NCBI RefSeq assembly: GCF_011806385.1
Contig: NZ_JAATOX010000013.1
Span: forward strand, 1-57,131
Direction of reading: 5' to 3'
Length of the DNA: 57,131 nt
Origin: Phaeobacter sp. HF9A
Lineage (GTDB): Bacteria > Pseudomonadota > Alphaproteobacteria > Rhodobacterales > Rhodobacteraceae
The translations under genes and the position numbers were made by a program. This document shows positions 17,657-57,131 of the stretch, one piece after another. The first letter of the stretch is position 1, and every line of letters begins with the position of its first letter. Below the pieces are notes generated by a model. That model saw only the letters and a list, made by a program, of their open reading frames with translations, was not told the origin of the DNA and did not search any database.

Positions 17657-17665
17657 GGAAGACCC

Positions 17666-38890: not shown

Positions 38891-39691
38891 ATGCGCAGCG
38901 ACGTGACCCATTTTCAATGCCGGATCGAGGAGGGGATCGCGCATCTGGCGCTGGATCGTCCCGACCGCAAGAACCCGCTGACTTTTGACAGCTACGCGGA
39001 GCTGCGCGACTGGTTTCGCGACCTGCATTACGATGACGAGGTCAAGGCGGTGGTCTTTGGCTCCAATGGCGGCAATTTCAGCTCGGGCGGCGATGTGCAT
39101 GACATTATCGGCCCGCTGACAAAGATGAACATGAAAGAGCTGTTGGCCTTTACCCGCATGACCGGCGATCTGGTCAAGGCGATGATTGGCTGCGGCAAGC
39201 CCATAATCGCTGCGGTGGACGGGATCTGCGCCGGGGCAGGGGCGATCATCGCCATGGCGTCGGACCTGCGGGTGGCAACGCCGGAGGCCAAGGTGGCGTT
39301 CTTGTTCAACCGGGTCGGGCTGGCGGGCTGCGACATGGGGGCCTGTGCAATGCTGCCACGGATCATCGGCCAGGGCCGCGCGGCGGAGCTGCTCTATCTC
39401 GGGCGGGCGATGTCGGCGGATGAGGGCGAGCGCTGGGGCTTCTTCAATCGCGTGGTGGCGCGGGATGATCTGCTGACCACCGCGCAGGACATGGCCGCAC
39501 GGATCGCGGCCGGGCCGGGTTTTGCCAATATGATGACCAAGACCATGCTGGCGCAGGAATGGTCAATGGGGCTGGAGCAAGCGATCGAGGCCGAGGCGCA
39601 GGCGCAGGCGATCTGCATGCAGGGGCAGGATTTCCACCGCGCCTATCACGCCTTTGTCGCCAAGGAAAAACCAGTGTTCGAGGGCAACTGA
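38891..39691 (+). CDS. Enoyl-CoA hydratase family protein
   Basis: This 266-residue crotonase-fold enzyme has the oxyanion-hole segments [11 protein letters not shown] (about 58-68) and [16 protein letters not shown] (about 111-126). It should hydrate or otherwise transform a cyclic enoyl-CoA in the anthraniloyl-CoA route. It overlaps the acyl-CoA dehydrogenase gene by one base. ATG 38891 begins one base after the MarR stop region; an earlier in-frame ATG inside the MarR gene is unlikely. Confidence 0.86.
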
Positions 39692-40845: not shown

Positions 40846-40846
40846 C

Positions 40847-42466: not shown

Positions 42467-43302
42467 CCAGCACACCCTTCAACCCCGAACAGGACGGCGC
42501 CCGCATGAGTTTTGACGGGGCCATGTCCTATGGGGATTATCTCAGGATCGACGAGATCCTGTCCCAGCAAGCGCCGCTCAGCAGCGCCCATGACGAGATG
42601 CTGTTCATCATCCAGCATCAGACCAGCGAATTGTGGATGAAACTGGCCATTCACGAACTCTCCGCCGCGCGCGAGGCGCTGCGGCTGGGCGAAATGCCGA
42701 CCATGTTCAAGATGCTGGCCCGCGTCAGCCGCATCTTTGAGCAGCTCAACAATGCCTGGGACGTGCTGCGCACCATGACGCCGGCCGACTACACGCATTT
42801 TCGCCAGACCCTCGGCAATTCCTCGGGGTTTCAGTCCTACCAGTATCGGATGATCGAATTCGTGTTGGGCAACCGCAACGCCAATATGTTGCAACCCCAC
42901 GAGCATGTGCCGCAGGTGCATGACTGGCTGGCTGCGGAACTGGCCCGTCCCAGTTTCTATGACGATGTTGTCGGGCGGCTGTTTGACGACGTCTACGGCA
43001 CCCGCGATGCGATGCCCGCGCCCCAACTGGACGGCCCGCATACGGCGCAGCCTGAAATCCAGGCCGCCTGGGCAACCGTCTATCGCGACGTAAACCGCTA
43101 CTGGACGCTATACGAGCTGGGCGAAAAGCTGGTCGATCTGGAGGATTACTTCCGCCGCTGGCGCTTTAACCACGTCACCACCGTGGAGCGGGTGATCGGC
43201 TTCAAGCGCGGCACCGGCGGCACCTCGGGCGTGCAATATCTGCGCCGCATGCTGGGGGTTGAGCTGTTCCCGGAGCTTTGGGCGCTCAGGGGGGAATTGT
43301 GA
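42463..43302 (+). CDS. kynA: Tryptophan 2,3-dioxygenase
   Basis: This 279-residue heme dioxygenase opens the indole ring of L-tryptophan to N-formylkynurenine. It keeps the distal segment FIIQHQTSELWMKL (about 47-60) and the proximal heme-ligand region RFNHVTTVERVIG followed by GTGGTSGVQYLR (about 242-256). Length matches bacterial TDO. It is fused translationally (ATGA) to the CoA ligase gene, which links tryptophan breakdown to anthranilate activation. Kynureninase and kynurenine formamidase, needed between the two, are not in the window. Confidence 0.95.
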   Translation: MTSTPFNPEQDGARMSFDGAMSYGDYLRIDEILSQQAPLSSAHDEMLFIIQHQTSELWMKLAIHELSAAREALRLGEMPTMFKMLARVSRIFEQLNNAWDVLRTMTPADYTHFRQTLGNSSGFQSYQYRMIEFVLGNRNANMLQPHEHVPQVHDWLAAELARPSFYDDVVGRLFDDVYGTRDAMPAPQLDGPHTAQPEIQAAWATVYRDVNRYWTLYELGEKLVDLEDYFRRWRFNHVTTVERVIGFKRGTGGTSGVQYLRRMLGVELFPELWALRGEL

Positions 43303-43402
43303 CGTGAGTGGTCGCTTTTTGAACCGATGCGCGCCCGCCCGGCTTTTGGCGGCATTAGCCAGGGCGACGTTGCCGCGGACCCAGGTGCGGGGGAGCTGAG
43401 CC

Positions 43403-43807
43403 ATGGGGGTGCGTTTCACCTTTGATCAAAAGATCCTGTTCAAACACTGTGACCCGGCGGGCATCGTGTTTTTCCCGCGCTACTTCGAGATGATCAACGA
43501 TTGCGTCGAACATTTCTTCGACGCGGTCCTGGACTGGCCGTTCGAGGTGCTGTTGCAAACCAACGGAGTACCAACGGCGGAGATTTCAACCCGGTTCCTG
43601 GCGCCCAGCCGTCACGGCGATCACGTGCAACTGGCGTTGACGGTGACGCGGAGCGGGCGCTCGTCGCTGAGCTACCGGATAGACGCAACCTGCGGCCAAG
43701 AGACACGCTTTGAGGCCGAGGCCACGGTGGTCAATGTCGATCAGGCCGGTAAACCCACTGCGTGGCCCGATGCCATACGCAAGAAATTACAAGAGGACAC
43801 ATCATGA
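43403..43807 (+). CDS. Acyl-CoA thioesterase, 4-hydroxybenzoyl-CoA type
   Basis: This 134-residue hot-dog-fold thioesterase has the active-site motif HCDPAGIVFFPRYFEM (about 15-30), with the Asp of the 4-hydroxybenzoyl-CoA thioesterase family. It may release CoA from dead-end aromatic thioesters formed by the ligase or act late in the route. It is separated from kynA by 100 bp in which I see no gene. It overlaps the RidA gene by four bases. Confidence 0.86.
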   Translation: MGVRFTFDQKILFKHCDPAGIVFFPRYFEMINDCVEHFFDAVLDWPFEVLLQTNGVPTAEISTRFLAPSRHGDHVQLALTVTRSGRSSLSYRIDATCGQETRFEAEATVVNVDQAGKPTAWPDAIRKKLQEDTS

Positions 43808-44199
43808 CCCACCAAATCATTCAGCCAGAGGGCTGGCTGCCTGCGAAAGGCTATGCCAACGGCGTGCTGACCAGCGATGGCACCTTGCATATCGGGGGCC
43901 AGATCGGCTGGGACGGCAACAAGCAGTTCGTGGCCACAGACTTTGTCGGCCAGATGCGGCAGGCCCTGCAAAACATCGCCGATATCGTGACCGCAGCGGG
44001 CGGGCAGGTGTCGGATGTGACGCGGCTGACCTGGTTCGTGATCGACAAATCCGAATATCTTGCCCGGCAGGCCGAGGTCGGCGCCGCCTATCGCGATGTC
44101 TTTGGCAAGCATTTTCCCGCCATGTCCATGGTTGTGGTCGCGGGCCTCGTCGAGGACGAGGCGCTGGTGGAGATTGAGGCGACGGCGCATCTGTCGTGA
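43804..44199 (+). CDS. RidA family enamine/imine deaminase
   Basis: This 131-residue YjgF/YER057c/UK114-family protein has GQIGWDG near 37-43, VDVTRL-like VSDVTRLTWFVID near 71-84 and a C-terminal VEIEATAHL strand. RidA proteins hydrolyse reactive enamines and imines. The product of anthraniloyl-CoA monooxygenase, 2-amino-5-oxocyclohex-1-enecarboxyl-CoA, is an enamine, so a deaminase in this operon makes chemical sense. It may therefore be a pathway enzyme and not general housekeeping RidA. It is the last gene of the operon. Confidence 0.87.
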   Translation: MTHQIIQPEGWLPAKGYANGVLTSDGTLHIGGQIGWDGNKQFVATDFVGQMRQALQNIADIVTAAGGQVSDVTRLTWFVIDKSEYLARQAEVGAAYRDVFGKHFPAMSMVVVAGLVEDEALVEIEATAHLS

Positions 44200-44295
44200 T
44201 CTGACGCCGCCGCCGCGCGGCCTTCGGCTGCGACCTCCAAACCAGATAAACCAACAGACCAGCGCGCGGATCACACCGCGCGCTGACGCTTTTGT

Positions 44296-44330
44296 GGTCT
44301 TGCCATGCGATTCTGGCAGGCCGCTTTTTT
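44296..44330 (+). terminator. Rho-independent terminator of the anthraniloyl-CoA operon
   Basis: The arms GGTCTTGCCA (44296-44305) and TGGCAGGCC (44314-44322) form an imperfect stem (seven consecutive pairs including one G-T, then a mismatch). The stem is followed by GC and six T residues. It lies 97 bases after the RidA stop and isolates this operon from the next. Confidence 0.72.
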
Positions 44331-44803: not shown

Positions 44804-45736
44804 TTGTCCGCTCTCTGTTCTCTTGCTTTGCCCACGCATGGCATCGTGCACCGCCCGCTTGACGCCCTGGGCGAAAGCCATGGGCTGACGCCCCGCTCGG
44901 CCTTGATGTATGAGCGTTTTTTCGGATTGCAAGCGGTGGCGCAGAGCCACGAAACGCTGGGCGATATGCTGGCTGGGGCGCTGGCGCAGGCAGTCGCGGC
45001 CCTGCCAGCGGAGGCCCCCGCGGGGCGGCTCATCTATTGTCGCACCCAAACCCATAACACGCTGAGCGACCGCAACTGGCTGCGCCGCCTGGCCGATGAT
45101 CACGGGCTTGAGGACTGGGAAGTATCCGCGCTGACCCTGACCAGCTGCGCCTCGGCACTGGTGCAGATGCATGTGGCGCGGCTTGGCGGCCTCGCCGAGG
45201 GCCAACCGATGATCATCCTGACCGGCGAGAAAGCCTTTCACCCCTCGGTGAGCCGCCTGCCGGTAGGGCTCTTGGCCGAGATCCCGGCGGCGGCGCTGTT
45301 CAATGCCGGCCCCGCCCGTTGGCATCTGGTGAATAGCCACCTGCGCCACCTGTCCCGGTTCCACCAGAACCCGGACCGGATGAGCGGCGCGGATCGCAAG
45401 GCGTTGCAGGAATGTTATGCACCTGAAATCATTTCATTTATCGAGCAAAGCCTGGCGCGATACGACGCCGATCTTGCTGCCGATATGGTCTTCCTGCCGC
45501 ACAATCTGAACCGGCCGGTCACCGATGCGATACTGCGTCACTTTGACTGGCAGGACCGCTGTTTCCACGGCGATCTGGCCCAGGCCGGTCACGCCTATTG
45601 TTCCGATGGTTTTGCCAATCTCGCGGCCTTTGAGGCGGCGGGGCGCAAAGAGAGCCAGGTGCTGATGCTGGCCGCCGGCACCGGCGTCACCTTCGCAACA
45701 TGTCTTTTCAACCGCAACCTTTCTGAACCTGAATGA
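44804..45736 (+). CDS. KAS III-like thiolase-fold enzyme (paralogue A)
   Basis: This 310-residue protein has the FabH-type double thiolase fold. The nucleophile is Cys115 in TLTSCASAL, followed by GEKAFHP near 141-147. His233 lies in FLPHNLN, and a second histidine, His263, stands in GHAYCSDGFANL where FabH has Asn (GN). The triad is therefore Cys-His-His. KAS III proteins condense or transfer acyl groups on carrier proteins. The start appears to be TTG 44804 after AAGGAT; a stop lies five codons upstream in frame, and the first beta strand (LSALCSLALP) starts here. It is the first gene of the operon, followed by an ACP gene. Confidence 0.83.
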   Translation: MSALCSLALPTHGIVHRPLDALGESHGLTPRSALMYERFFGLQAVAQSHETLGDMLAGALAQAVAALPAEAPAGRLIYCRTQTHNTLSDRNWLRRLADDHGLEDWEVSALTLTSCASALVQMHVARLGGLAEGQPMIILTGEKAFHPSVSRLPVGLLAEIPAAALFNAGPARWHLVNSHLRHLSRFHQNPDRMSGADRKALQECYAPEIISFIEQSLARYDADLAADMVFLPHNLNRPVTDAILRHFDWQDRCFHGDLAQAGHAYCSDGFANLAAFEAAGRKESQVLMLAAGTGVTFATCLFNRNLSEPE

Positions 45737-45746
45737 GGACCTTCCC

Positions 45747-46019
45747 ATGACCAACACCCTGCTCAAGACCCTGTCCGAGGCGCTCAGCGACATCTGTGAA
45801 CGCGAGGTCGGTACGATCACAGAGACCACCCGCTTTGACCGCGATTTCGACCTCGACAGCTATATGTTTGTGCAATTCCTGCTGAGCCTGGAAGACCGGC
45901 TGCCGGGGCTGCGCTTTGAACCCGAGGCGATCGGACAGGCCGATTTCAACAATGCCAGCGGTCTGATCAGCTATATCGACTCTCAGCTTCTGGCAGCCCA
46001 GGGGTTGGTCGATGCTTGA
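45747..46019 (+). CDS. Acyl carrier protein 1
   Basis: This 90-residue acidic four-helix carrier protein has the phosphopantetheine serine Ser38 in FDLDSYMFVQFLL. It ends 10 bases after paralogue A starts the cluster and overlaps the next gene by eight bases. The EDRLPGLRFEPEAI segment after helix II is repeated almost unchanged in the third carrier protein of the cluster (ERLPGLEIDPSAL), so the two are related. It probably serves the neighbouring KAS III-like and dehydrogenase-like proteins. The cargo is unknown. Confidence 0.87.
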   Translation: MTNTLLKTLSEALSDICEREVGTITETTRFDRDFDLDSYMFVQFLLSLEDRLPGLRFEPEAIGQADFNNASGLISYIDSQLLAAQGLVDA

Positions 46020-46647
46020 TGCGCGCGCATGTTCTCCCGGCGCGCAGGCCTTTCAGGCGGCGCGCTGCCTGGCGCCCCGATCCGCGCTGCAACAAGCCTG
46101 CCTGGCGCTGACCGGGCAGGAGGGCTACTTGCTGGCCGGCACCCATGCGGTGCATGGCACGGATGCGCCGCTGATCGACCCGGATCAGCCCGAACGGGCA
46201 CAAGAGGCGCAGAGCTGCGGTGCCGATCCCGCGCTTGCGGCCTTTGGTCTTGGCCTCTCGCGGGTGGCGGCGCGGCCCGCCACGGCGCTGTCGCCGGAGC
46301 TGGCGCAGGTCTTTGTCGCGCTGCGGCTGGGGCTTCTGGCGCGCATCCTGGATCTGTCCTACCGGCATCTGGAGCCGCGTCAGGCCTTTGGCCAGCGGCT
46401 GCTGCACCAACCGTTGATCAAGGCGCAATTTTCCAAGAGCGGCGCCTTTGTCTCGCAGGTGCAGGAGGAGCTGGAGCAGGGTGGCGAGATCGCGACAACG
46501 CGGCTGCACGACCAGATCGACCAGCACGGCCAGCAGGCCGCCAAGCTGATGGGCGGGCACGGGTTTCGCGCAGGTGAGGTCAACGGGCTGGAGTATCTCT
46601 CCGGTCTCTTGCGGGCGACGCTGACGCCGGTTGCAGAGAGGGGGTGA
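46012..46647 (+). CDS. Truncated acyl-CoA dehydrogenase-like protein
   Basis: This 211-residue protein corresponds to the C-terminal helical domain of acyl-CoA dehydrogenases. Residues 95-145 (LRLGLLARILDL, RQAFGQRLLHQPLIK) and 180-200 (LMGGHGF, EYLSGLLRA) follow the family pattern. The usual N-terminal helical and beta domains are reduced to about 90 residues without a TEPxxGSD motif, and the chain ends before the region of the catalytic Glu. It is unlikely to be an active dehydrogenase alone. A non-catalytic partner of the fused dehydrogenase in this operon, or a scaffold, are possibilities. ATG 46012 overlaps the ACP gene, so it is translated and not debris. Confidence 0.72.
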   Translation: MLDARACSPGAQAFQAARCLAPRSALQQACLALTGQEGYLLAGTHAVHGTDAPLIDPDQPERAQEAQSCGADPALAAFGLGLSRVAARPATALSPELAQVFVALRLGLLARILDLSYRHLEPRQAFGQRLLHQPLIKAQFSKSGAFVSQVQEELEQGGEIATTRLHDQIDQHGQQAAKLMGGHGFRAGEVNGLEYLSGLLRATLTPVAERG

Positions 46648-46651
46648 GCGA

Positions 46652-47206
46652 ATGGCACGTATCTCCCTTGGGACAGTTTCGGTACTGGCGACGGGCGCAC
46701 TGCCCTTCCGAGCGGAGCCGCGCCACTGCACCGAAAGCGGGCCGAGAACCCACGCCTGGCGCGCCTTTCACGACGTCGCGCCGGAGTGCCCGCTTCAGGT
46801 TGCGCTGTTTCGCAACGGCAGTGAGACGGCTTTGCACCCGGCAGACCTGGAGAGCCACTGGCGCCAATTGCGCGCGCTGGGTGAAGAGCCGCTGCTGGTC
46901 TATCTGCATCGGGGCCATCAGGAAGACACCCGCAATCCGATCCTGGCGCCGCTGCTGGCGCGGATCGCCTATCGCGGCCCGGTGCATGCGCTGCGGGTCG
47001 AGAGCCGCCGGGCGTTGCGCGATGCGCTCGATTTCGCCCGGGTGCTCGCACAGGGGGCCCAGCGGGTGCTGGTGCTGAACGATCCGACTCATCGTCTGTT
47101 TTCTGGTGAAACCCCCAGCCGTGCACCGCTGCGATACCTCTTGCTTGGTCGTGACACCGCCTTTGACCGACCCATTGCCACGCCCTTTCAACAGGAGACC
47201 CCCTGA
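46652..47206 (+). CDS. Unknown protein, possible half-length thiolase-fold protein
   Basis: This 184-residue protein matches no family with confidence. It begins ISLGTVSVLATGALPF, like the first strand of KAS enzymes. Its middle (LLVYLHRG, then ALRVESRRALRDALDFARVLAQG and VLVLNDPTHRLFS) lines up by eye with paralogue A around its active site (LIYCRTQ, ALTLTSC..., ARLGGLAEG, MIILTGEKAFHPS). The cysteine position is Arg. It stops before the C-terminal thiolase half. If the alignment holds, it is an inactive, half-size relative. It is coupled to the MATE gene by one base (TGATG). Confidence 0.5.
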   Translation: MARISLGTVSVLATGALPFRAEPRHCTESGPRTHAWRAFHDVAPECPLQVALFRNGSETALHPADLESHWRQLRALGEEPLLVYLHRGHQEDTRNPILAPLLARIAYRGPVHALRVESRRALRDALDFARVLAQGAQRVLVLNDPTHRLFSGETPSRAPLRYLLLGRDTAFDRPIATPFQQETP

Positions 47207-48585
47207 TGCCCAGTGATGCCAACACGATTCAGCCTGCGATGCAGACACCCTCGATCCCGAGATCGCTGGGCCGCATCCTCGCCTTGGCTATCCCCTTTGC
47301 GCTAGGTGCGGCGATCACCTCTGCGCTCAACCTCGGAAATGTCGCGCTGCTGTCCCGGGTGACGGATACCGGCGCCCTGCATGTGCTGTCGCTGATGCAG
47401 CCGAGTTTCCTGCTGGTCCTGGCCCTGATGGAGGGGCTGGCGATCACCAATCAGGTGTTCAGCGCCCGGTCCCGGCACAACTGGCCACGTCGCGGGGTCT
47501 GGCGGGTGACCTTGCAGCTTTGCGCGATCGGGCTGGTGATCTTTGGTCTCGTGGCCGCTGTCGGCAAAGCGGTGCATCACTTTCTGCCGGTGGCGAACCC
47601 GGTGATCGCCACAACGCTGGAACATTTCCCGATGTTCGTGCTGTCGATGATCCCTTTTGTGATCTTCGATATTTTCTACGGGGCCCTGCGCGGGCAGGGG
47701 CGGATCCTGCATGGGCTGCTGCCCTTTGCGCTGCTGATGGTGGTGAACCTCGGGGTGCTGTATTTCCTCGCGGACCGGCTGGGGTGGGGCTTTGACGCGG
47801 TGTTGCTGGCCAATGTCGCCGGACCGCTGATCGCCTTGCCCGTCATTGCGACCCTGTTGTGGCGGGAGGTGCGCGGCGGTGAGATGCCGAACAGCGAGGC
47901 CAGCCGCGCCCGGTTGCGCCAATTGCTGGCCGGGGTTGGCATACCGGTCTTTGCCTCGATCATCGTCGGCTTTGTCAGCGCCTCGGTGGCCTACCCGATC
48001 CTGTCCGACCTCGGGTCCGAGAATGCGGCTGCGTTCTTTGTGGTCCTGCGCTACCGGATTGCCTTCATGATCCCGGCGATCGCGATCGGATCGGCGATCG
48101 CCATTCTGGTCAATCAGCTGGCCGAGGCTGGCGAGGGGCAGGCGCGGTTCCGCTATCTGGCCTATGGTGTGCCGATCATGCTGGCCGCCTATGCGCTGGC
48201 CGCGGCGGCGCTGCCCCATTGGAACGGAATGCTGGATCTTCTGGTGCCGAGCCAATCCGCCGCCCTGCGTCACGCCACGGAGCTGATGTTCCAGGGCCTG
48301 CTGCTGACCTTTTTCCTGACCCCGGCGGCGGCCATGTTGCAGGTGATCCTGGAACAGTTGGGACGCGGTGGGCTGGTTCTGGTGACCACCGTGCTCTGCG
48401 AGGGGGGCACCTGCGTGGCGCTGATTTGGGCGCAGAGCCAGGGCGACATGGCGCTGGTGCTGCAAATCCTGACCGGGTTTGCCCTGCTGAGCTTTGGCCT
48501 CTTCGTTCTGCAATTGCTGCTGCTGTTGCGCCAGTTCGGACGCCGCGCGCCGCAGCCCGTCGGAGGCTATGCGGATGCTGTTTGA
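47206..48585 (+). CDS. MATE family efflux transporter
   Basis: This 459-residue integral membrane protein has about twelve hydrophobic segments in two halves, with the MatE-type segments LAIPFALGAAITSALNL near 26-42 and FDIFYGALRGQGR near 153-165 (the conserved alpha-helical segment that precedes RGxGxT in the family). MATE proteins export cationic or amphipathic small molecules with Na+ or H+. It lies in the middle of the biosynthetic operon, which suggests export or self-protection for the product. ATG 47206 overlaps the preceding stop; ACAGGAG precedes it. Confidence 0.87.
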   Translation: MPSDANTIQPAMQTPSIPRSLGRILALAIPFALGAAITSALNLGNVALLSRVTDTGALHVLSLMQPSFLLVLALMEGLAITNQVFSARSRHNWPRRGVWRVTLQLCAIGLVIFGLVAAVGKAVHHFLPVANPVIATTLEHFPMFVLSMIPFVIFDIFYGALRGQGRILHGLLPFALLMVVNLGVLYFLADRLGWGFDAVLLANVAGPLIALPVIATLLWREVRGGEMPNSEASRARLRQLLAGVGIPVFASIIVGFVSASVAYPILSDLGSENAAAFFVVLRYRIAFMIPAIAIGSAIAILVNQLAEAGEGQARFRYLAYGVPIMLAAYALAAAALPHWNGMLDLLVPSQSAALRHATELMFQGLLLTFFLTPAAAMLQVILEQLGRGGLVLVTTVLCEGGTCVALIWAQSQGDMALVLQILTGFALLSFGLFVLQLLLLLRQFGRRAPQPVGGYADAV

Positions 48586-49507
48586 GCTGGCCTTGCCGGG
48601 TCTGTGCCTGGCGGAAACCCTGCGCTGCCTCACCGGTGCGGTGACCGGCCGCCGCAGCCCCCGCCCGCCGTTTGCCTTTCGCGCCCTGCGTGGGCGGATG
48701 GAACGAAAGGAAATCGCCCTGCTGGCGCGTTTTGCGCCGGAGCGGGGCGCCCGGGTGGTATTGTCCCGCTTTGAAGGCATGCGCCCGGGCGGGGGGCGGA
48801 TCCGGCAGCGGATCTGGCGGCCGGATTGGCGCCAGGGCGCCCCCCTCGCGCAGCGCAGTTTGAACGGGGCAAGCCCGATCCGGGTGCTGCTGTTGCACGG
48901 CTGGAACGCGGATCGCAGGATGGTGATGCCACTGGCCGAGGCCCTGGCGGGCGCTGGCATTGCGGTCATCGTCCCGGATCTGCCGGGCGAAGGCGACAAC
49001 CACGCCGAGCGGCTGAGTTTCGCGGAAAAGGCACAGCGGCTGGCGCGGGCCTATGAGGGGCAGAGCTTTGATGCGGTGATCGCCCATTCGGCAGGCGCGC
49101 TGGTGGCGGCCCTGGCCATCGAGGCCGGTCTCGACAGCAAAGGGCTGGTCACGGTTTGCGGCCATCTGTCGATGGCCAAGATGCTGCAAGGCTATCTGCG
49201 GGTGAGCGGTGCCTCGCCCGATCTGCTGGCGCCGCTTCTGTCCTGGTACGGACGCCGCGACGGCGAGGATCCGCGTCAGGTCGGTCCCCGTGTCTACCGG
49301 CGTTTTCCGGGCCGGCTGCTGGTGGTGCACGCGTCGCGCGACTGGCAGGTGCCGCCTGCCGAAGCGCATGAGATCGCGGCGCTTGCCGCCTCGCGGCCAC
49401 TCATCCTCGACCGGTGCAACCATCACAGCATTCTGTCCGATCAACGTCTTCAGGGCGCGGTCGTGGCTTTCCTCTCCCGCAACGCCAACCAGAAAAGCGC
49501 AGTCTGA
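48575..49507 (+). CDS. Alpha/beta hydrolase
   Basis: This 310-residue alpha/beta hydrolase has the oxyanion-side LLLHGWNAD (105-113), the nucleophile elbow AHSAG with Ser172, Asp256 in ASRDWQVP and His283 or His284 in CNHHSIL. It could release the product from a carrier protein or edit wrong cargo. Related hydrolases accompany the exosortase-A-type ligase/decarboxylase/carrier sets. ATG 48575 is chosen (GGAGG eight bases upstream); ATG 48569 is only two bases from that site. It overlaps the MATE gene by 11 bases and the next gene by one. Confidence 0.84.
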   Translation: MLFELALPGLCLAETLRCLTGAVTGRRSPRPPFAFRALRGRMERKEIALLARFAPERGARVVLSRFEGMRPGGGRIRQRIWRPDWRQGAPLAQRSLNGASPIRVLLLHGWNADRRMVMPLAEALAGAGIAVIVPDLPGEGDNHAERLSFAEKAQRLARAYEGQSFDAVIAHSAGALVAALAIEAGLDSKGLVTVCGHLSMAKMLQGYLRVSGASPDLLAPLLSWYGRRDGEDPRQVGPRVYRRFPGRLLVVHASRDWQVPPAEAHEIAALAASRPLILDRCNHHSILSDQRLQGAVVAFLSRNANQKSAV

Positions 49508-50433
49508 TGCTTCATATCCTCGATATCGCCATCGCCTATCCCGAGCGGCAGGAAGCCTTGAGCGACCTCCAGGAGGAGCTATCGCTGAGCCGCGATCAGA
49601 TGCGGCTCTATTCCCGCTTTTTCGGCTTTGAACAGTTTCATTGCGATGCGGGCGAGCCGCTGGACGAGATGATCGCCCGCGCCAGTGATGCGGTGCTGGC
49701 GCGCAACCCCGATCACGACGCGACCCTGGCTCAGGTGGTGCATTGCCACACGCTGCCCTCGACCAGCCCGTTCAACGGTCAGACGTCGGATATTTTGGCC
49801 CCTTTCAGGCGGCGTGGGCTGGAGTGCCAAAGCGCCACGATGAACCATTGCGCAACGGGCCTCAGCATGCTGGGGGTGATGGCCGATCTTCTGGAGGAGG
49901 GGCAAACCGGTCTGATCCTGATCGGAGAGAAAGCCTTTCACCCCGCGATCCGGGTCATCGAGAACACCACGATCATGGGAGAAGCAGCCGTCGCGGTGCC
50001 GGTTGGTCACACCGAAGGCCCCTATGCGCTGCTGGATACCCATCGCCAACACGCCACCAAGTTCTGGCGCAACACCGGTCTGCGCGGCGAAAACTATCTG
50101 GAGGGGTTTGACGAAGCCTATCTGGAGTTTGCCACGCAGGCGATCTCGGCGGCAGCGGCGCGCGCCGGGATCGCGCTGAGCGACATCGCGCGGGTGATGC
50201 CCCATAATGTGAATGCGCCGTCCTGGTATCAGATCGCGTGCAAGCTGGGTCTCGCCTCCGGCATGATCGAGCTTTCGACCCTTGGCCGGTTTGGCCATTG
50301 CTTTGGCGCGGATCCCTTTCTCAACCTCGATGCCGCCGCCCGCGGCGGGCGGCTCAGTGCCGGCGACCGGCTGCTCTTGTTCAGTATCGGGCTTGGCGCG
50401 ACCGCCTCTGCCGCGTTCCTGGAGGTGCGCTGA
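49507..50433 (+). CDS. KAS III-like thiolase-fold enzyme (paralogue B)
   Basis: This 308-residue FabH-like protein is a paralogue of the first gene. Cys115 lies in TMNHCATGLSML, His233 in VMPHNVN and His264 in GHCFGADPFLNL, again a Cys-His-His set at the same positions as in paralogue A. It shares GEKAFHP after the nucleophile elbow with A. It presumably handles a different acyl donor or carrier, since it is followed at 80 bp by its own ACP gene. Start ATG 49507 overlaps the hydrolase stop by one base. Confidence 0.86.
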   Translation: MLHILDIAIAYPERQEALSDLQEELSLSRDQMRLYSRFFGFEQFHCDAGEPLDEMIARASDAVLARNPDHDATLAQVVHCHTLPSTSPFNGQTSDILAPFRRRGLECQSATMNHCATGLSMLGVMADLLEEGQTGLILIGEKAFHPAIRVIENTTIMGEAAVAVPVGHTEGPYALLDTHRQHATKFWRNTGLRGENYLEGFDEAYLEFATQAISAAAARAGIALSDIARVMPHNVNAPSWYQIACKLGLASGMIELSTLGRFGHCFGADPFLNLDAAARGGRLSAGDRLLLFSIGLGATASAAFLEVR

Positions 50434-50512
50434 GACGCGCCCCTTTCGCTCCCTCCACGTCCTCAACCCGGAACCTGCATCGTTCCAGAAATTGCCAATA
50501 GGAGAACTCAAG

Positions 50513-50791
50513 ATGACCAATTATTCCACCACCGTTCTGGCCAGCCTCAGCGAGGTTGGTCTGGGTCCGCAACGCCTGCAGCGCGCCGCAAACGGGGAGC
50601 CGCTGCTGGGGCAGGGGGGGCTGCTGAACTCCATCGAGCTGGTGCAGTTCATCGTCACCCTGAGCGAGAACACCGACGTCGATGTCTATGATTTCATGGA
50701 TCAGGTCCGCACCGAAGGCGGTCGCGGCGACATCGCCGATCTGTCGAATTTCCTGGCCGCGCAGCACGCGCCCCAAGCGATGATGGGTTGA
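50513..50791 (+). CDS. Acyl carrier protein 2
   Basis: This 92-residue small protein has the carrier-protein pattern LLNSIELVQFIVTLSE, in which Ser40 would bear phosphopantetheine. The residue before it is Asn, where most carrier proteins have Asp, and the upstream acidic segment is replaced by GQGG. It is therefore more divergent than the other two carriers here, and modification should be tested. It follows paralogue B and precedes the decarboxylase-dehydrogenase fusion by three bases. ATG 50513 follows AGGAGA. Confidence 0.78.
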   Translation: MTNYSTTVLASLSEVGLGPQRLQRAANGEPLLGQGGLLNSIELVQFIVTLSENTDVDVYDFMDQVRTEGGRGDIADLSNFLAAQHAPQAMMG

Positions 50792-50794
50792 GCA

Positions 50795-53236
50795 ATGTCG
50801 GATTTCACTCTTTCCCCGAGCGACGCACAGCGGCTCCAGCGCGTTGCCGAGCAGGTGGGCACGCCGTTCTATCTCTATGATGCGGCGCGGCTGCGCGCCC
50901 GGGTGGCGGCCCTGCGGGCGGCGCTGCCGCAGGCGGAGTTCTTCTATTCGCTGAAGGCCAACCCCAATCTGTCGGTGGTGAGCACGCTCACCCAGGAAGG
51001 CCCCGGCGCCGAGGTCTGTTCGCGGCTGGAGCTGGAAACCGCGCTGGCGGCGGGGGTTGTGCCCGCTCGCATTCTGATGGTCGGGCCGGGCAAGTCACAG
51101 GAGGAGCTGCGCCGGGCAGTGCAGCTTGGCCTGAAGGCCATCGTCGCGGAATCCCTGGAGGAGCTGCGCGATATTGATCGCATTGCCGCCGATGAGGGGC
51201 GTCACCAGCCGGTGGCGCTGCGCATCAACCCGGATTTCACCGTCACCGGCGCGCGGCTGACCATGAGCGGCAAGGCCACGCAGTTCGGCATCGAGCAAAC
51301 GGACCTGACCCAGGCGCTGGCGCTGCTGGCGAAGCTGCCGCATCTGCGGCTGGCGGGGCTGCATGTGTATATGGGCACGCGGATCCTGTCGGCGGAGACC
51401 CTGGCGGCCAATACCCGGCAGGTGCTGGCGCTGGCCGAGGAGATCATCAACGAGGCGGCGATGCCGCTGGAGTTTGTCGATGTGGGCGGCGGTTTCGGCG
51501 TTCCTTATTCCGACAAGGAAACCGCGCTGGACCTGGAAGAGGTCGGCGCCGCGTTGCGCCCGCTGATCGCCGCCTTTCGCGACAAATACTGCGATACCCA
51601 TGTTGCCATAGAACTGGGCCGTTTCATGGTGGCGGAGGCGGGGCTGTTCTGCACCCGCGTGCTGCGTCGCAAGACCAGCAAGGGAGAGCATTTCGCGGTC
51701 TGTGACGGTGGCTCCAACGTGCATGCGGCGGCAGCGGGGCAGGGCTTCATGCGGCGCAATTTCCCGATTTCGCTGATCCCGCAGACACCCGCCATGCAGC
51801 ACGCGCCGGTGGCGCGCTGGTCGGTGACCGGGCCGCTCTGTACGCCGATGGATGTGATCGCCGCTGGCGTCGATCTGGCGGATCCCCAGCCGGGTGATCT
51901 GATCTGCATTCACCAGTCGGGCGCCTATGGGCCGAGCCATTCGCCGGTGAATTTCCTGGGCTTTGGCACCCCGGCCGAGGTGATGGCCGATGGTGACAGG
52001 CTTACGCTGGTGCAGGCCGCGCCGGACTGGCGTCAACGGCTCAGGGCGCAGGCCCCGCAGCTGCTGCCGGCGGCTGACGATATCGCGGCGCAGGCCCCGG
52101 CGACGCCCGGCCCCTTTGGCAGCGGAATGCTGGATGAGCTTTGGGGTCTCAAGGGGCTCTGTGAAGAGGTCGGCGGGCAGCTGGAAAGCGACCCCGACGC
52201 CTGGGGGCTTCTGTGGCAGAACCCGCTGCTGCGGGCCCTGACCACCATTGGGGTGCCCGCCGCCTATAACGGGTTTCCATTGTCGGAGACCTCGCTTGGC
52301 CTGGAGGACTGCCCCTATGATCTCCATGTGGCGATCATCGAGCGGCTGGCACGGTTTGATGCGAGCTGCATCATGGCACTGCCGGGGCCGTCGCTGTCGG
52401 GCGGGGCGGTGCTCGCTGCGGGCAGCGAGGCGCAGATCGCGCGGTTTTTCCGCGCCTATCGTGACGGGCCGCAGGGCACATTTTTTGCGGTGACGGAGCC
52501 CGAGGTCGGCTCTGACGCCTCGGCGGGCCAGACCCGGCTCGACAGTGCTGCCGATGGCCGGATGTCGCTCTCTGGCAGCAAGATGCTGGTCGGCAATATC
52601 GCCCGGGCGCAGATCGGTCTGGTATTTGCCCGCCGCAGCGACACCGGGCGGCCGGCGCTGGTGATGCTGGATCTGGCAGAGGCCGGATCCCGGGTCGAGA
52701 TCACCCGCTTGCCGACAACCGGGCTGCGCGGGGCGGATCTCTGCCGTATCGACATGAAGGATGTCGCGGTCACGCCCGAGATGGTGCTGGGCAGCGATGC
52801 GGCCGGAACGGCTGGCCTGCGCGACGGTTTCATGGCGATCAACGGCGTGTTCGAGCGCAATCGCCCGGTGGTGGCGGCCCTGGCCCTGGGCAATGCGCGC
52901 GGCATGTTGGATCGGCTCAAGCAGGCGGGCGCCCTTGGCTTTGAGGATGCCGAAGGCAGCTATCGGGCGCTGCTGTCGCGGCTCGCGGCGGTTCTGCACG
53001 ACTATATGCAAGGCCGCCCCCGCGCGCATCGGGTCAGCGAGATCAAGGTGCAGGCGGTGGCGTTTTCCGATGCGCTGGTGGCCCGCATCGGCGCCGAGGC
53101 ACCAGACGCCATGCTCAGTGATGCGTTGCTCCGGCGCAAGATGCGCGACGCCAAGGCGTTCGAGTATATGGAGGGCACCTCCAACATCAACCTGATGGCG
53201 GCCTTCCGCGCCTATCTCGCGGAGGTGCGGGCATGA
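50795..53236 (+). CDS. PLP-dependent decarboxylase fused to acyl-CoA dehydrogenase
   Basis: This 813-residue two-domain protein has an N-terminal half (about 1-410) that is a fold-type III (alanine racemase-like) PLP decarboxylase: Lys54 in FFYSLKANPN, the phosphate loop VGGGFG (230-235), ELGR (273-276), Cys303-Asp304 in CDGGSN and the QSGAYG motif (374-379). It resembles decarboxylases that act on carrier-bound amino acids (BtrK, VinO) and the exosortase A-associated group, more than LysA. After an Ala/Pro/Gln linker (about 410-440), the C-terminal half is an acyl-CoA dehydrogenase with TEPEVGSD (567-574) and Glu793 in YMEGTSNIN. The fusion suggests decarboxylation then alpha,beta-desaturation of one carrier-bound substrate. 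Confidence 0.88.
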   Translation: MSDFTLSPSDAQRLQRVAEQVGTPFYLYDAARLRARVAALRAALPQAEFFYSLKANPNLSVVSTLTQEGPGAEVCSRLELETALAAGVVPARILMVGPGKSQEELRRAVQLGLKAIVAESLEELRDIDRIAADEGRHQPVALRINPDFTVTGARLTMSGKATQFGIEQTDLTQALALLAKLPHLRLAGLHVYMGTRILSAETLAANTRQVLALAEEIINEAAMPLEFVDVGGGFGVPYSDKETALDLEEVGAALRPLIAAFRDKYCDTHVAIELGRFMVAEAGLFCTRVLRRKTSKGEHFAVCDGGSNVHAAAAGQGFMRRNFPISLIPQTPAMQHAPVARWSVTGPLCTPMDVIAAGVDLADPQPGDLICIHQSGAYGPSHSPVNFLGFGTPAEVMADGDRLTLVQAAPDWRQRLRAQAPQLLPAADDIAAQAPATPGPFGSGMLDELWGLKGLCEEVGGQLESDPDAWGLLWQNPLLRALTTIGVPAAYNGFPLSETSLGLEDCPYDLHVAIIERLARFDASCIMALPGPSLSGGAVLAAGSEAQIARFFRAYRDGPQGTFFAVTEPEVGSDASAGQTRLDSAADGRMSLSGSKMLVGNIARAQIGLVFARRSDTGRPALVMLDLAEAGSRVEITRLPTTGLRGADLCRIDMKDVAVTPEMVLGSDAAGTAGLRDGFMAINGVFERNRPVVAALALGNARGMLDRLKQAGALGFEDAEGSYRALLSRLAAVLHDYMQGRPRAHRVSEIKVQAVAFSDALVARIGAEAPDAMLSDALLRRKMRDAKAFEYMEGTSNINLMAAFRAYLAEVRA

Positions 53237-54096
53237 CGCTCTTTCTTTCACGCGACAGCCTGCTGGCGGATGTCTTTGAGACGCTGGAGCAGGTGGATCC
53301 CAATTGGCTCGACCAGCAGGACTATTGGGAGGATTACAATGCGCGGTTCTTCCAATCCAACGGGCTGACCTACTCCCGGTCCGAGGACAGCAATGTAACA
53401 ACCTGGCTGACGGCACCGGACCGGGCGTCCTTTGCGGCGATGTCGGATGTCTTGCTGGAACAGCTCCAGGCGCGCTGCAACCTTGGGGACATTGATCTGG
53501 TGTTGCTGGCCCATTGGACCCCGGATTTGCACCTGGGCAGCTCGGTCACCAATTTCGCCCTGCACAAGCTGGGTTTGGTGGATGGGTTCGGTTTTGCGAT
53601 CTCCGACCGGGGGTTGTCGGCCCCCTTCTACGCGCTGGATTGCGCCGAGCGGATGCTGCGGGACACGCGCAAGAAGGCGCTGGTGATGGTGATGGATCAG
53701 AAACACCTGCTTTATCGTTCGCCCTCCATCGCGCGCCTGGAGCCGCAGAATGCGGCCTGCGTCATGGTGCTGGAGCGCGACGGCATCGGCGAATTTGCCT
53801 ATGCGGGCTATCAGACCCGGCGCGGCCTGCATGCAAGCGACTTGCCAGGGCTGGTCGCGGCCCGCTGCGACGAGCTGGGCATTGCGCGGGGCGACACCAC
53901 GGTGATTGCGGCCCCAGCGCATTGTGCAGCGCTGGCTGCCGGGGGGCCGGTGCTGGCACAAGATCCCAGCCGGATGTGCTCGGCCCCCTTTGCGGCTCTG
54001 GCCCAGGATGGCCTCGCGCGCCATGCGCTTCTGCTGTCGCAGGAGGAGGATCGCGTGACCACGGTTGCCTTCCGGCGTCGGGAGGATCTGTCATGA
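53233..54096 (+). CDS. Degenerate KAS III-like protein without the catalytic cysteine (paralogue C)
   Basis: This 287-residue protein has the thiolase-fold outline (IDLVLLAHWTPDLHLGSS near 87-104, SAPFYALDCAERMLRD near 129-144, ALVMVMDQKHLLY near 149-161). The nucleophile-elbow position reads ISDRGLSAPFYAL, with no cysteine before the small residues. The PHNVN and GHxYxxDPF motifs of its three relatives are reduced to APAHCAAL and SRMCSAPFAAL. It should not be a condensing enzyme. Since it lies directly before an active paralogue with a four-base overlap, an inactive partner subunit, like a chain-length factor, is the likely role. Confidence 0.75.
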   Translation: MTLFLSRDSLLADVFETLEQVDPNWLDQQDYWEDYNARFFQSNGLTYSRSEDSNVTTWLTAPDRASFAAMSDVLLEQLQARCNLGDIDLVLLAHWTPDLHLGSSVTNFALHKLGLVDGFGFAISDRGLSAPFYALDCAERMLRDTRKKALVMVMDQKHLLYRSPSIARLEPQNAACVMVLERDGIGEFAYAGYQTRRGLHASDLPGLVAARCDELGIARGDTTVIAAPAHCAALAAGGPVLAQDPSRMCSAPFAALAQDGLARHALLLSQEEDRVTTVAFRRREDLS

Positions 54097-55094
54097 GACT
54101 CTCTGCGCTTGCCACACATATTCCCGATCACCGTATTTCCGCGGCGCAGATCGTGGCCGCCGCGGGCGGCAGCCCGGCAGAGGCAAAGGTGTTCCAGCGC
54201 ATGTTCGGCATGGAGCATGTTTCTGCCACCCGCCCGGGAGAGACGCTGGACGGGGTATTTTCCGACCTGGTGGCGCGGCTTGCTGCGGCGCATAGCGGCG
54301 AGGCGCCCGATGCGCTGATCTATGTGCGTGGACAGCCGCTGCAATATGGCCGCGGGCGCTCGCCGATGGATCGGCTGCGCCAAGAGCTGCCATTTCTAGC
54401 CTCGGTGACACGCTGCTACGAGGTGGATCAATACAATTGCGGCGGCTTGTTCTGGGCGCTGGATCTGGCGCGCACGTTGCTGGTCTCCGGCCTGGCGCGC
54501 GCGGTTCTGGTGCTGGGCGGAGACAGCCATATCGGTGTGCCGCTCGGGGATCGCTATGTGCCGGGCTGCACGCTGATGGGCGACGCCTTTTGCGGCATGC
54601 TGGTTGATCTCGACCCCAGTGGCGCGCAGATTTCGCCGATTGTGCTGCGCACCCATCCTGAATTCGCAGCCGGTCGCGGCGGCACGGCGCAGGAAACCGG
54701 CGCATTCTTCGCCGCGCATCAGCGCATCTGTGGCGAGGCGCTGGAGTTGACCGGCTTTGACTGGCAGGGCCAGGGCTTGTTGCTGCCGCACAATGTCAAC
54801 CGCTTGGCCTGGCAGGATTTTTGCCGCGCGTTCAGTCTCGACGAGGCGCGGATCCGGCTCAGCCTGCTGCCCGATGTCGGCCATTGCTACGTTTGCGATC
54901 CCTTTCTGCTGTTGGCCGAGGCGCTGGCGACGCCCCTGGCCGAAGCGCCGACCCTGCTCTCGGTGGGGATGGGGGGCTATGTGGGCGCCTGCTCGCTGAC
55001 GCCGCCACCGCCATCCTCGCCCGATTTTTCCTCTTTCCCCCTCACCACACATAGATCGGAGGCCACAGAATGTATGCTCAAGGAACACTGCTGA
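54093..55094 (+). CDS. KAS III-like thiolase-fold enzyme (paralogue D)
   Basis: This 333-residue FabH-like protein has Cys116 in DQYNCGGLFWAL, His233 in LLPHNVN and His264 in GHCYVCDPFLLL, the same Cys-His-His arrangement as paralogues A and B. The fold ends at about residue 302 (GGYVGACSL). A Pro/Ser-rich tail of about 30 residues follows and runs 25 bases into the next gene, across its ribosome binding site. Start ATG 54093 overlaps paralogue C by four bases, suggesting a C-D heterodimer. Confidence 0.86.
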   Translation: MRLSALATHIPDHRISAAQIVAAAGGSPAEAKVFQRMFGMEHVSATRPGETLDGVFSDLVARLAAAHSGEAPDALIYVRGQPLQYGRGRSPMDRLRQELPFLASVTRCYEVDQYNCGGLFWALDLARTLLVSGLARAVLVLGGDSHIGVPLGDRYVPGCTLMGDAFCGMLVDLDPSGAQISPIVLRTHPEFAAGRGGTAQETGAFFAAHQRICGEALELTGFDWQGQGLLLPHNVNRLAWQDFCRAFSLDEARIRLSLLPDVGHCYVCDPFLLLAEALATPLAEAPTLLSVGMGGYVGACSLTPPPPSSPDFSSFPLTTHRSEATECMLKEHC

Positions 55095-56617
55095 CCCATT
55101 TTCTCGCCGAAGCGGCCCAAAATCGCCCGCATGCGCCGGCGATTGCCGATGCCACCCGTCGGTTCGACTATCGCAGCCTGGCGGCAGCGGCCGCGCGGAT
55201 TGCCGATGCGCTGGAAGATCTTGGCGTGCGCCGCGGAGATCGGGTGATCCTGTCGATGCCCAATTCGGTCGCCTTTGCGTCGAGCTTCTGGGGCATTCTG
55301 GCCGCCGGTGCAGTCGCGGTGCCGGTGAACCCCAGCACCAAGGCACGCAAATTCGCCTATATCCTCGACAATTGTGCGCCCCGCGCGGTTCTAGCTGATG
55401 GCGACACCGCAGAGGAAATCTGCACCGCCATGGCCGATCTGGCCGAGCAGATCCCGCTGCTGACAACAGCGACGCAAAGCGCGCCGGGCCCGCTGGATGC
55501 GCTGCTGGACCGGGGCGAGGCGCAGCCGCTGCGGCGGCCTGATGTGATTGACCAGGACCTTGCGGTGATCATCTATACCTCTGGCTCCACCGGGGATCCC
55601 AAAGGGGTGATGCTCTCGCATCTCAACATGACCTCCGCAGCGCGATCGGTTGCAAGCTACCTCGGATATCGCGCCGAAGATCGCATCTTTGTCGCGGTTC
55701 CGATGAGCTTTGACTACGGTTTGCATCAGCTGACCATGGCGGCCTTGACCGGGGCGGCAGTGGAGGCGGAGCCCTCTTTCGGCCAGCCCTTCTTTACCCT
55801 GAAACGTCTCCAGGACACTGAGGCGACGGTATTTCCGATCGTGCCGAGCATGGTGCCGATCATCGCGCCCTTGGCGGATCGGTTTGACCTTGGCGCAATC
55901 CGGCTGGTGTCCTCGACCGCAGCGGCATTGCATCCAAGCGTCATCGACCGGCTCCAGGCGATGCTGCCCAAGGCGACCGTCTTTTCAATGTATGGGCTGA
56001 CCGAATGCCACCGTTGCACCTATCTGCCGCCGGAAGAGCTGGAGGGCCGCAAAATGAGTGTCGGCATCGCCATTCCCAACACTGAAATGTGGGTGGTGGA
56101 CGAGGCCGGCACTGCGCATCACCGCAACGCCACCGGCGAGCTGGTGATCCGGGGCGCCACGGTGATGAAGGGCTACTGGAAGAACCCGACGGCCACCGCA
56201 AAAAGGCTGAAGCCCGGTCCGCTGGCGGGCGAATGGGTGCTCTATACCGGCGATACCTGCCGGATTGATGCGGATGGTTTCCTTTATTTCGTGGGGCGCT
56301 CCGATGACATTCTCAAGATCGGCGGCGAGAAGGTAGCGCCGATCGAGGTCGAAACCACGCTGATCGCCCATCCCGAGGTGACCGCCGCCTGTGTGCTGGG
56401 CGAGGCAGATCCGGTTCACGGGCAGATCTGCGTCGCGCATGTGGAAACCGGCACCAGTGTTCAGGCGTTGCTGACATGGTGCCGTGATCGGCTCGATCCG
56501 CAGGCGGTGCCCGCAAAAATCAAAACCTACACAAGCCTTGCACGCACGCAAAACGGCAAGATCGACCGCGCCGTTCTGGCATCGGGCCAGGCCGCCACGC
56601 TGCAACCCGCAACCTAA
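55070..56617 (+). CDS. AMP-forming acyl/aminoacyl ligase
   Basis: This 515-residue ANL-family adenylating enzyme has the P-loop IIYTSGSTGDPKG (about 168-180), MYGLTECHRC near 307-316, YTGD and the C-terminal catalytic Lys497 in QNGKIDR. Its VPMSFDYGLHQL segment is shared with exosortase A-associated acyl ligases and with prolyl-carrier-protein ligases of pyrrole pathways. It therefore probably loads an amino or other small acid onto a carrier protein, most simply the one encoded 18 bases downstream. A CoA ligase role cannot be excluded. ATG 55070 follows CGGAGG. Confidence 0.86.
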   Translation: MYAQGTLLTHFLAEAAQNRPHAPAIADATRRFDYRSLAAAAARIADALEDLGVRRGDRVILSMPNSVAFASSFWGILAAGAVAVPVNPSTKARKFAYILDNCAPRAVLADGDTAEEICTAMADLAEQIPLLTTATQSAPGPLDALLDRGEAQPLRRPDVIDQDLAVIIYTSGSTGDPKGVMLSHLNMTSAARSVASYLGYRAEDRIFVAVPMSFDYGLHQLTMAALTGAAVEAEPSFGQPFFTLKRLQDTEATVFPIVPSMVPIIAPLADRFDLGAIRLVSSTAAALHPSVIDRLQAMLPKATVFSMYGLTECHRCTYLPPEELEGRKMSVGIAIPNTEMWVVDEAGTAHHRNATGELVIRGATVMKGYWKNPTATAKRLKPGPLAGEWVLYTGDTCRIDADGFLYFVGRSDDILKIGGEKVAPIEVETTLIAHPEVTAACVLGEADPVHGQICVAHVETGTSVQALLTWCRDRLDPQAVPAKIKTYTSLARTQNGKIDRAVLASGQAATLQPAT

Positions 56618-56635
56618 GACAGGACAGAGAAAACC

Positions 56636-56902
56636 ATGACACAGACATATGAATCCCACGTAATCGCCGCCGTCGCAGAGCTTCTGGACATGGACAGCAG
56701 CGACACGATCACCTCCGCCAGCCGGATCGAAGATGATCTGGGCATTGATAGCGGGCTTCTGCTTGAACTCTTTATGATGCTGGAAGAGCGGCTGCCGGGG
56801 CTGGAGATCGACCCAAGCGCGCTGCGCCCGGAACAATTTGCCACCATTGGCAGCTTCGCCGCCATGCTGAGCGAAGACCGCAGCGAGAAAGTTCCGGCAT
56901 GA
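56636..56902 (+). CDS. Acyl carrier protein 3
   Basis: This 88-residue acidic carrier protein has Ser39 in DDLGIDSGLLLELFMML, a good phosphopantetheine site, followed by EERLPGLEIDPSAL, which closely repeats the same region of carrier 1. It lies between two adenylating ligase genes and overlaps the second by four bases, so it is the most likely acceptor of an activated amino acid in this cluster. Confidence 0.9.
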   Translation: MTQTYESHVIAAVAELLDMDSSDTITSASRIEDDLGIDSGLLLELFMMLEERLPGLEIDPSALRPEQFATIGSFAAMLSEDRSEKVPA

Positions 56903-57131
56903 GCGCGCGGTTGGCACAGGAACATAGCGATCCCGGGGTGGTGATTGGCCGTCTCTACGCGCGGTTCAAGGCACTTGCGCAGCCTGCCTATCGCAGTGCC
57001 ACCAGGGATTTGAGCTATGCCGCGCTGCACGACGCGGCAGGCGCATTGGCCCAGAGCCTGGCCCGGTTGCCCCGGGCGCAGCACCGCCCGCCGGTGTTGA
57101 TCTGGGGCCATAAGCATTCAAGCTATCCGGG
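56899..57131 (+). CDS. DltA-like adenylating ligase, N-terminal part (3' end outside window)
   Basis: Only the first 77 residues are inside the window. They match the N-terminus of ANL ligases (RDLSYAALHDAAGALAQSL, about 37-55), and PPVLIWGHKHSSYP (about 66-77) resembles the PVIVYGxxxPEM region of DltA, the D-alanine:carrier-protein ligase. If so, this gene loads an amino acid onto a carrier protein. ATG 56899 overlaps the ACP gene as ATGA. The operon continues beyond the window. Confidence 0.72.
   Translation, partial: MSARLAQEHSDPGVVIGRLYARFKALAQPAYRSATRDLSYAALHDAAGALAQSLARLPRAQHRPPVLIWGHKHSSYP

Follow-up and report, generated by a model that had tools for sequence, protein, structure and literature searches.

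The window analysed here is the whole of contig NZ_JAATOX010000013.1 of Phaeobacter sp. HF9A (57,131 nucleotides; C32 in our numbering), and its final part, positions 44804-57131, is occupied by fourteen + strand genes of a carrier-protein biosynthetic operon, the last of which, for a second adenylating ligase, is interrupted by the contig end. The intergenic gaps are, in gene order, 10, -8, 4, -1, -17, -1, 79, 3, -4, -4, -25, 18 and -4 bp, that is eight overlaps, four gaps of 3-18 bp and one of 79 bp between the genes which we call B and ACP2, the sole one above 20 bp. A sequence-only reading of this DNA had described fourteen genes of one direction, mostly overlapping or less than 20 bp apart, with free-standing carriers and no modular non-ribosomal peptide synthetase (NRPS) or polyketide synthase (PKS) among them; the arrangement and the coordinates are correct, and domain scans bear out the rest.

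The gene FUS (50795..53236) encodes a BtrK-like pyridoxal phosphate (PLP) decarboxylase (approximately residues 1-420, with Lys54) joined to an acyl-CoA dehydrogenase domain (approximately 430-813, with a conserved Glu793), and both domains of the fusion that had been recognised from the letters were matched. The top PDB match of the PLP half is BtrK with 272.2 bits, the next other protein reaching 165.8. Lys54 and Glu793 are invariant in all 20 aligned sequences, the latter within an EYMEGT motif at the place of the catalytic Glu of MCAD. Of 7998 candidates scored, 170 are FUS homologues at E<=0.001, with Rhodobacterales, Azospirillum, Pseudovibrio and Rhizobiales among the named sources, and 44 of the 120 homologues listed, the window's included, cover at least 98% of the query. 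On Agrobacterium vitis plasmid pRvVAR031a (L101) the decarboxylase and the dehydrogenase are separate adjoining genes in an unfused version of the operon. Fusion in these 44 homologues and adjacency in A. vitis argue for successive steps on one substrate, and the fusion suggests decarboxylation and desaturation on one carrier-bound chain. In a decarboxylase tree of the window and 31 of the 87 decarboxylase-bearing loci, the window groups with Yoonia and Pseudooceanicola; the Burkholderia cenocepacia row forms a long branch of unsure placement. The gene DHt (46012..46647) holds the acyl-CoA dehydrogenase C-terminal domain only: its sole match is that helical domain (PF00441, 20.0 bits against a cut-off of 22.4), and its product is a probable partner subunit.

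Four full-length proteins (A, B, C and D) and probably one truncated protein (X) represent the thiolase fold, in keeping with the four or five counted before. A (44804..45736; its start codon is uncertain, TTG at 44804 or a later one), B (49507..50433) and D (54093..55094) resemble β-ketoacyl-acyl carrier protein synthase III (KAS III) and carry Cys115/His233/Asp268, Cys115/His233/Asp269 and Cys116/His233/Asp269, respectively. B exceeds the gathering score of its KAS III model, A and D are slightly under theirs. Cys, His and Asp are kept in 13 of 13 orthologues of B and likewise of D, and in A the Cys is found in 9/9, the His in 8/9 and the Asp in 9/9 aligned orthologues; all three proteins have His at what we take to be the FabH Asn position. 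B and D are candidate KAS III-like acyltransferases. C (53233..54096) has neither the catalytic Cys (0/13 aligned orthologues) nor the His and matches KAS III weakly by sequence; its predicted structure (predicted local distance difference test, pLDDT, 94.9) matches KAS III structures, with AbyA1 as the top Foldseek match, and on this confident model C is predicted to have the KAS III fold. It is a probable inactive partner of the adjoining D. The model of X (46652..47206; 184 residues) has a pLDDT of 77.2 and weak PDB matches (best E 2.4e-3, none at 0.001), although 48 of the 50 entries listed have titles of thiolase-fold enzymes or complexes thereof; X is probably a truncated thiolase-fold fragment and possibly an inactive KAS partner.

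The heterodimer-like neighbourhood of C, devoid of an active site, and the active-looking D, together with AbyA1 as the leading match of C, would also fit KAS III-like pairs that join carbon chains in the manner of PqsBC or AbyA1 and yield a small N-heterocycle or a polyketide-like amine. We consider this unlikely: A, B and D are without the FabH Asn and have the Asp reported for AfcL and AfcO of the AFC-BC11 pathway discussed below, and no gene reached the cut-off of a malonyl-CoA ligase or ketoreductase model in the scans made. As to the distribution of D, 47 of 7994 candidates scored are homologues at E<=1e-8; the identity is 39-69% for 46 of them and 24% for the remaining one, and no phage sequence matched D. 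Homologues at 48-49% identity are present in Phaeobacter inhibens, P. gallaeciensis and other Phaeobacter (P0157-P0160), which are possible tractable hosts.

LIG1 (55070..56617) is a VinN-like adenylating enzyme. Among single-domain PDB entries it matches 3wvn best (273.7 bits), two-domain gramicidin synthase entries ranking higher by the summing of domains, and a 156-residue piece of it matches solely 3wv4 and 3wvn at E<=1e-18 among PDB sequences. We take 3wvn to be VinN, the PDB search naming it as a non-ribosomal peptide synthetase only; Asp, Ser and Arg stand at its chain positions 246, 315 and 347, and the one constant offset of 16 from VinN residues 230, 299 and 331 supports this identity. 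The relation of the operon to BtrK and VinN, pointed out in the sequence-only reading, is supported by these PDB matches. VinN Asp230, Ser299 and Arg331 were proposed to hold aspartate and are all said to be kept in BolO of the bolagladin pathway (PMC7756342), and the AfcQ counterpart of Arg331 was modelled as turning the Asp β-carboxyl toward the catalytic Lys (PMC12186527). D215, T283 and R315 of LIG1 align with the three, each invariant in 16 of 16 sequences, and LIG1 is predicted to load L-aspartate by its β-carboxyl. The likeness to the exosortase A-associated set, also noticed earlier, stood insofar as its models are the best NCBIfam ones for LIG1 (TIGR03098 acyl-CoA ligase, 384.0 against 592.35 bits) and for the decarboxylase half (TIGR03099, 369.4 against 478.45); both are under cut-off, and membership in that set was rejected. 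The fatty-acid-CoA ligase model PRK06187 (333.2 bits) and the amino-acid adenylation model (271.8 bits) are likewise below cut-off on LIG1.

The three carriers claimed for the operon were recovered, two of them by Pfam PP-binding (cut-off 20.8 bits), namely ACP1 (45747..46019; DSYM motif; 28.3 bits) and ACP3 (56636..56902; DSGLL motif; 33.6 bits). The divergent ACP2 (50513..50791) has zero Pfam matches at E<=1 and is recognised by its serine motif, NSIEL within GLLNSIEL, and by the same position in relatives. ACP3 is the likely carrier of the aspartate/β-alanine unit, because its homologue adjoins the decarboxylase in Paenibacillus. LIG2, of which the window holds the 5' part (56899..57131), is a DltA-like ligase. 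For LIG2 and for LIG3, a further ligase encoded on another contig, DltA is the best among single-domain PDB entries with the Tritonibacter proteins as queries, and the DltA models of NCBIfam are the best, below their cut-offs. The DltA-like FCGE motif of LIG2 is found in 22/22 sequences; at this position LIG3 has GGE in 13/20, and in 7/20 the pattern is unmatched.

BtrK acts on a γ-glutamyl carrier, and, with the decarboxylase half closest to BtrK in PDB and a Paenibacillus relative that has an ATP-grasp gene directly before the decarboxylase, together with carrier genes, one may picture γ-linked glutamate converted, as in butirosin, to a γ-aminobutyric acid unit, which the dehydrogenase would turn into a 4-aminocrotonyl unit, perhaps with cyclisation to a pyrrolinone. 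This appears rather improbable to us, given that LIG1 is VinN-like with its Asp and Arg kept and that Pfam scans of the 14 genes found no ATP-grasp gene. Membership in the butirosin BtrI/BtrJ/BtrK system itself, whose BtrK is nearest to the decarboxylase half and which employs an ATP-grasp ligase and a glutamate substrate, was rejected on the latter result.

Two further genes of the operon would serve release and export. HYD (48569..49507) encodes an alpha/beta hydrolase (PF12697, 46.2 bits), a candidate releasing thioesterase, and the MATE-type exporter (47206..48585) announced before is present with a weak TIGR00797 match, 24.6 bits against a cut-off of 147.4. Upstream, the gene preceding the operon is of RidA type and ends at 44199, and 3 terminator-like hairpins, as consensus matches only, lie at 44260-44320 where 0.6 are expected. 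The same-strand upstream genes at 39559-44196 include those for an acyl-CoA dehydrogenase, an AMP-binding ligase and a RidA-type protein, possibly a catabolic operon.

The remainder of the operon is likely held by contig C192 of the same genome. A LIG2 query from a Phaeobacter metagenome-assembled genome matches the last gene of the window with its residues 5-70 and C192:3-1271 with its residues 85-507. C192 (L111:3-11665) carries this rest of LIG2 (3-1271) and then a P450, LIG3, a periplasmic adaptor, an ATPase of the ATP-binding cassette (ABC) type, two FtsX-type permeases, a luciferase-like flavin oxidoreductase, a second acyl-CoA dehydrogenase and a phosphopantetheinyl transferase-like gene. 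Extension of the contig, advised as a check, led to the probable remainder of LIG2 and to nine other genes of the cluster. On a Tritonibacter mobilis plasmid LIG1 and ACP3 are followed by the C192 genes in a single run that has one additional gene, located between the permeases and the oxidoreductase, and from this order we infer that C192 follows C32; the window operon would then likely be about half of a cluster of ~24 kb. A gene at L098:31215-32570, annotated as hypothetical and flanked by the ABC permeases and the luciferase-like gene, resembles FAD oxidoreductases weakly and is unmatched on C192 1-12000.

Thirteen loci, all with an adjoining decarboxylase and dehydrogenase, were compared (the window, L018-L025 and L098-L101; L022 and L098 are one species). 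The order from ACP1 to LIG2 is kept in the 12 other loci, which are partly non-independent, with single genes missing in some. By similarity search ACP1, DHt, X, MATE, B, C, D, LIG1, ACP3 and LIG2 are found in 13/13 loci (X in L099 over a short stretch only), HYD in 12/13 (absent in L019) and ACP2 in 12/13, an unmatched small gene taking its place in L101. A lies directly upstream in 8/13 loci; it is elsewhere in L023 and was not seen in L024, L025 and L100, and L020 begins at the contig end. Gene C is present in 6 of 394 family genomes, the window's own included, and in 6/6 of them the decarboxylase-dehydrogenase, C and D are contiguous. Together with the order kept in 12 loci this is more than chance, and a scattering of the homologues in other genomes, which would have spoken against the operon as a unit, was not what we found.

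The cluster is rare among the sampled genomes. In a class survey 183 of 385 genomes match the FUS profile at E<=1e-60, and among the matches listed only 2 genomes have one that runs across both halves, the rest being confined to the decarboxylase part; C is present in those 2. A genome scan with FUS found 195 relatives, and the 80 loci kept from it include 8 full fusions (L018-L025), 467 plasmid records match FUS, 6 of them with at least 80% coverage, and D is found at E<=0.001 in 15 of 148 relatives, strongly in 4 and weakly in 11. The gene set is conserved in Rhodobacterales and Rhizobiales, and also in Azospirillum, its hosts including bacteria of the sea, of soil and of plants; Vibrio, Prodigiosinella, Lonsdalea, Pseudomonas and Rahnella have rearranged relatives in which decarboxylase and dehydrogenase are two genes, and a smaller common core occurs in Paenibacillus, Cohnella and actinobacteria. 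Among particular relatives, the A. vitis locus has an additional KAS III-like gene between D and LIG1, and the Paenibacillus locus (L033, 7609-18860) has, besides the ATP-grasp gene that precedes the decarboxylase, an arginase-family gene, possibly as a glutamate-based version. In the Burkholderia cenocepacia plasmid record L118, an unannotated cluster at 8793-20045 combines KAS III-like genes with two that resemble dehydrogenases, a GNAT gene and a regulator of the LuxR type, its LIG1-like and decarboxylase-like genes having 34 and 39% identity. We tried it as the afc cluster and take it as a further relative: a carrier match was not found, and its neighbours differ from the published afc description.

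The cluster itself was not found in the literature searched on Phaeobacter, Rahnella and Tritonibacter, nor was its whole gene set found in a characterised pathway in any of the literature searched. The sequence-only reading could not match the operon to a known pathway, and this is outdated as regards the kinds of enzymes, since AFC-BC11 (PMC12186527) and bolagladin (PMC7756342) use like kinds on L-aspartate. The pathway of AFC-BC11, an antifungal described from the Burkholderia cepacia complex in 2025, has no condensation domains: AfcQ attaches L-Asp to AfcK through the side chain and also makes the next amide bond, AfcP decarboxylates, and the authors expect AfcE to carry out the desaturation, the AfcQ/AfcK/AfcP steps being shown in vitro (PMC12186527). 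AfcL and AfcO are reported to have Cys/His/Asp, and AfcL transferred the chain to lysyl-CoA in vitro (PMC12186527). The operon and afc have in common a VinN-type ligase, a carrier, a PLP decarboxylase, KAS III-like acyltransferases with the Cys/His/Asp set (we infer its Asp to be equivalent to that of AfcL), and the lack of condensation domains, none of which appeared in Pfam scans of the 14 genes or in the NCBIfam scan of eight C192 genes; the dehydrogenase half of FUS, with its conserved Glu793, may be the counterpart of AfcE and BolQ. Only afc, as described, has a single carrier, a fatty-acyl-AMP ligase, a citrate synthase and an O-methyltransferase (afcA, afcS, afcT), whereas only the window cluster has three carriers, two DltA-like ligases, the decarboxylase-dehydrogenase fusion, an inactive KAS-fold partner, a P450 and MATE. 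Neither the 14 genes nor those scanned on C192 gave a match to citrate synthase or methyltransferase, and no fatty-acyl-AMP ligase was identified in the cluster, its three ligases being nearest to VinN and DltA in PDB. With these not found, and with three carriers and two further ligases, we do not file the cluster as afc.

In bolagladin L-Asp is loaded, decarboxylated and desaturated to dehydro-β-alanine, and bolQ deletion in vivo led to the β-alanine analogue (PMC7756342). The starter cassette (bolC, N, O, M/P, Q) shares with the operon an Asp-type ligase, a carrier, a BtrK-like decarboxylase, KAS III homologues and an acyl-CoA dehydrogenase; it feeds a tetramodular NRPS, while none was found beside the window cluster. 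Membership was rejected, no NRPS being annotated in five related plasmid loci and only LIG2 and LIG3 matching adenylation queries on C192 1-12000. That the operon feeds an NRPS encoded elsewhere in the genome with dehydro-β-alanine as a starter, in the way proposed for a similar cassette in bolagladin (PMC7756342), seems to us very improbable: although open frames of 1653 and 1397 amino acids on C222 and C239 of this genome give adenylation-type matches, ligases, a hydrolase, exporters and a phosphopantetheinyl transferase are all encoded by the cluster itself, and the five proteobacterial plasmid loci, whose gene tables are incomplete, have no annotated NRPS. The vicenistatin starter pathway is not known to include a dehydrogenase step. 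It feeds a modular PKS, unlike the window cluster, and shares with it aspartate β-carboxyl loading and PLP decarboxylation on a free carrier by VinN/VinO/VinL (PMC7756342); membership was rejected, a modular PKS not being annotated in the five plasmid loci nor found in the 14-gene or C192 scans. The Streptomyces compounds enamidonin, autucedine and olenamidonin are cyclic lipopeptides with a dehydro-β-alanine residue (PMC11204786), and several Streptomyces loci with homologues of B, the decarboxylase, C and the dehydrogenase may belong to this type. Solanimycin (PMC10204066), said to hold dehydro-α-alanine, was set aside.

From our analysis we find it fairly probable, by analogy to these pathways, that the cluster makes a small dehydro-β-alanine (enamide) peptide by stand-alone enzymes, without a modular NRPS; the operon holds each enzyme kind of the AFC-BC11/bolagladin mechanism, which makes that mechanism the most likely one. 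The phosphopantetheinyl transferase of C192 would prime the three carriers, and LIG1 would activate L-aspartate at its β-carboxyl and charge a carrier, likely ACP3, with it. The PLP half of FUS would take off the α-carboxyl to give a β-alanyl thioester, B or D, both KAS III-like with Cys/His/Asp, would likely acylate the free amine, and the flavin half of FUS, perhaps with DHt, would desaturate the unit to a dehydro-β-alanyl thioester. LIG2 and LIG3 would charge the other carriers with further amino acids, and chains would be passed to amines, in place of condensation domains, by the KAS III-like enzymes, each teamed with an inactive protein (D with C, and A perhaps with X); LIG1, if AfcQ-like, could itself add more than one β-alanine. 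HYD would release the chain, the P450 and flavin enzymes would tailor the product, and MATE with the MacB/Lol-type ABC exporter would export it. The earlier outline of loading, decarboxylation, desaturation, transfer and export fits, as an outline, the published enzymes of like kinds.

Several points weigh against this proposal. The likeness to afc and Bol, including that of FUS to BolQ and AfcE, is one of published descriptions and enzyme kinds, not of protein alignment. AfcR, the third afc KAS III-like protein, is reported to have Thr/His/Glu, and C has none of these. LIG1 keeps two of the three VinN aspartate residues, with Ser299 replaced by Thr, whereas BolO keeps all three, and acyl-CoA ligase models outscore the amino-acid adenylation model on it. 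No fatty-acyl-AMP ligase or citrate synthase that might account for the acyl donor was identified in the cluster, and in the view of the AFC authors a dehydrogenase would act poorly on a β-alanyl thioester whose amine is free (PMC12186527). The γ-glutamyl substrate of BtrK and the related Paenibacillus decarboxylase gene that comes after an ATP-grasp gene indicate that the substrate may differ within the family. A does not adjoin the operon in 5/13 loci (at L020 the contig starts there), and in A. vitis it carries Tyr in place of His. Finally, the C192 phosphopantetheinyl transferase is below NCBIfam cut-offs (TIGR00556, 43.0 against 45.35); the counterpart in Tritonibacter does attain the ACPS cut-off of Pfam.

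In broader terms, and only tentatively, the cluster could be a type example of widespread condensation-domain-free peptide factories, in which active/inactive KAS III-fold pairs act as amide synthases, free carriers are charged by VinN- and DltA-like ligases, and a fused decarboxylase-dehydrogenase converts an aspartyl to a dehydro-β-alanyl carrier. For AFC-BC11 of Burkholderia, the formation of amides on a free carrier by an adenylating and a KAS III-like enzyme was reconstituted in 2025 (PMC12186527). If our proposal is true, this condensation-domain-free logic would be much wider, extending to roseobacters, rhizobia and Azospirillum and to the rearranged relatives in Vibrio, Pseudomonas and Rahnella; it would provide a single-polypeptide decarboxylase-dehydrogenase for study and would point to an undescribed metabolite in culturable hosts, for instance Phaeobacter and Tritonibacter.

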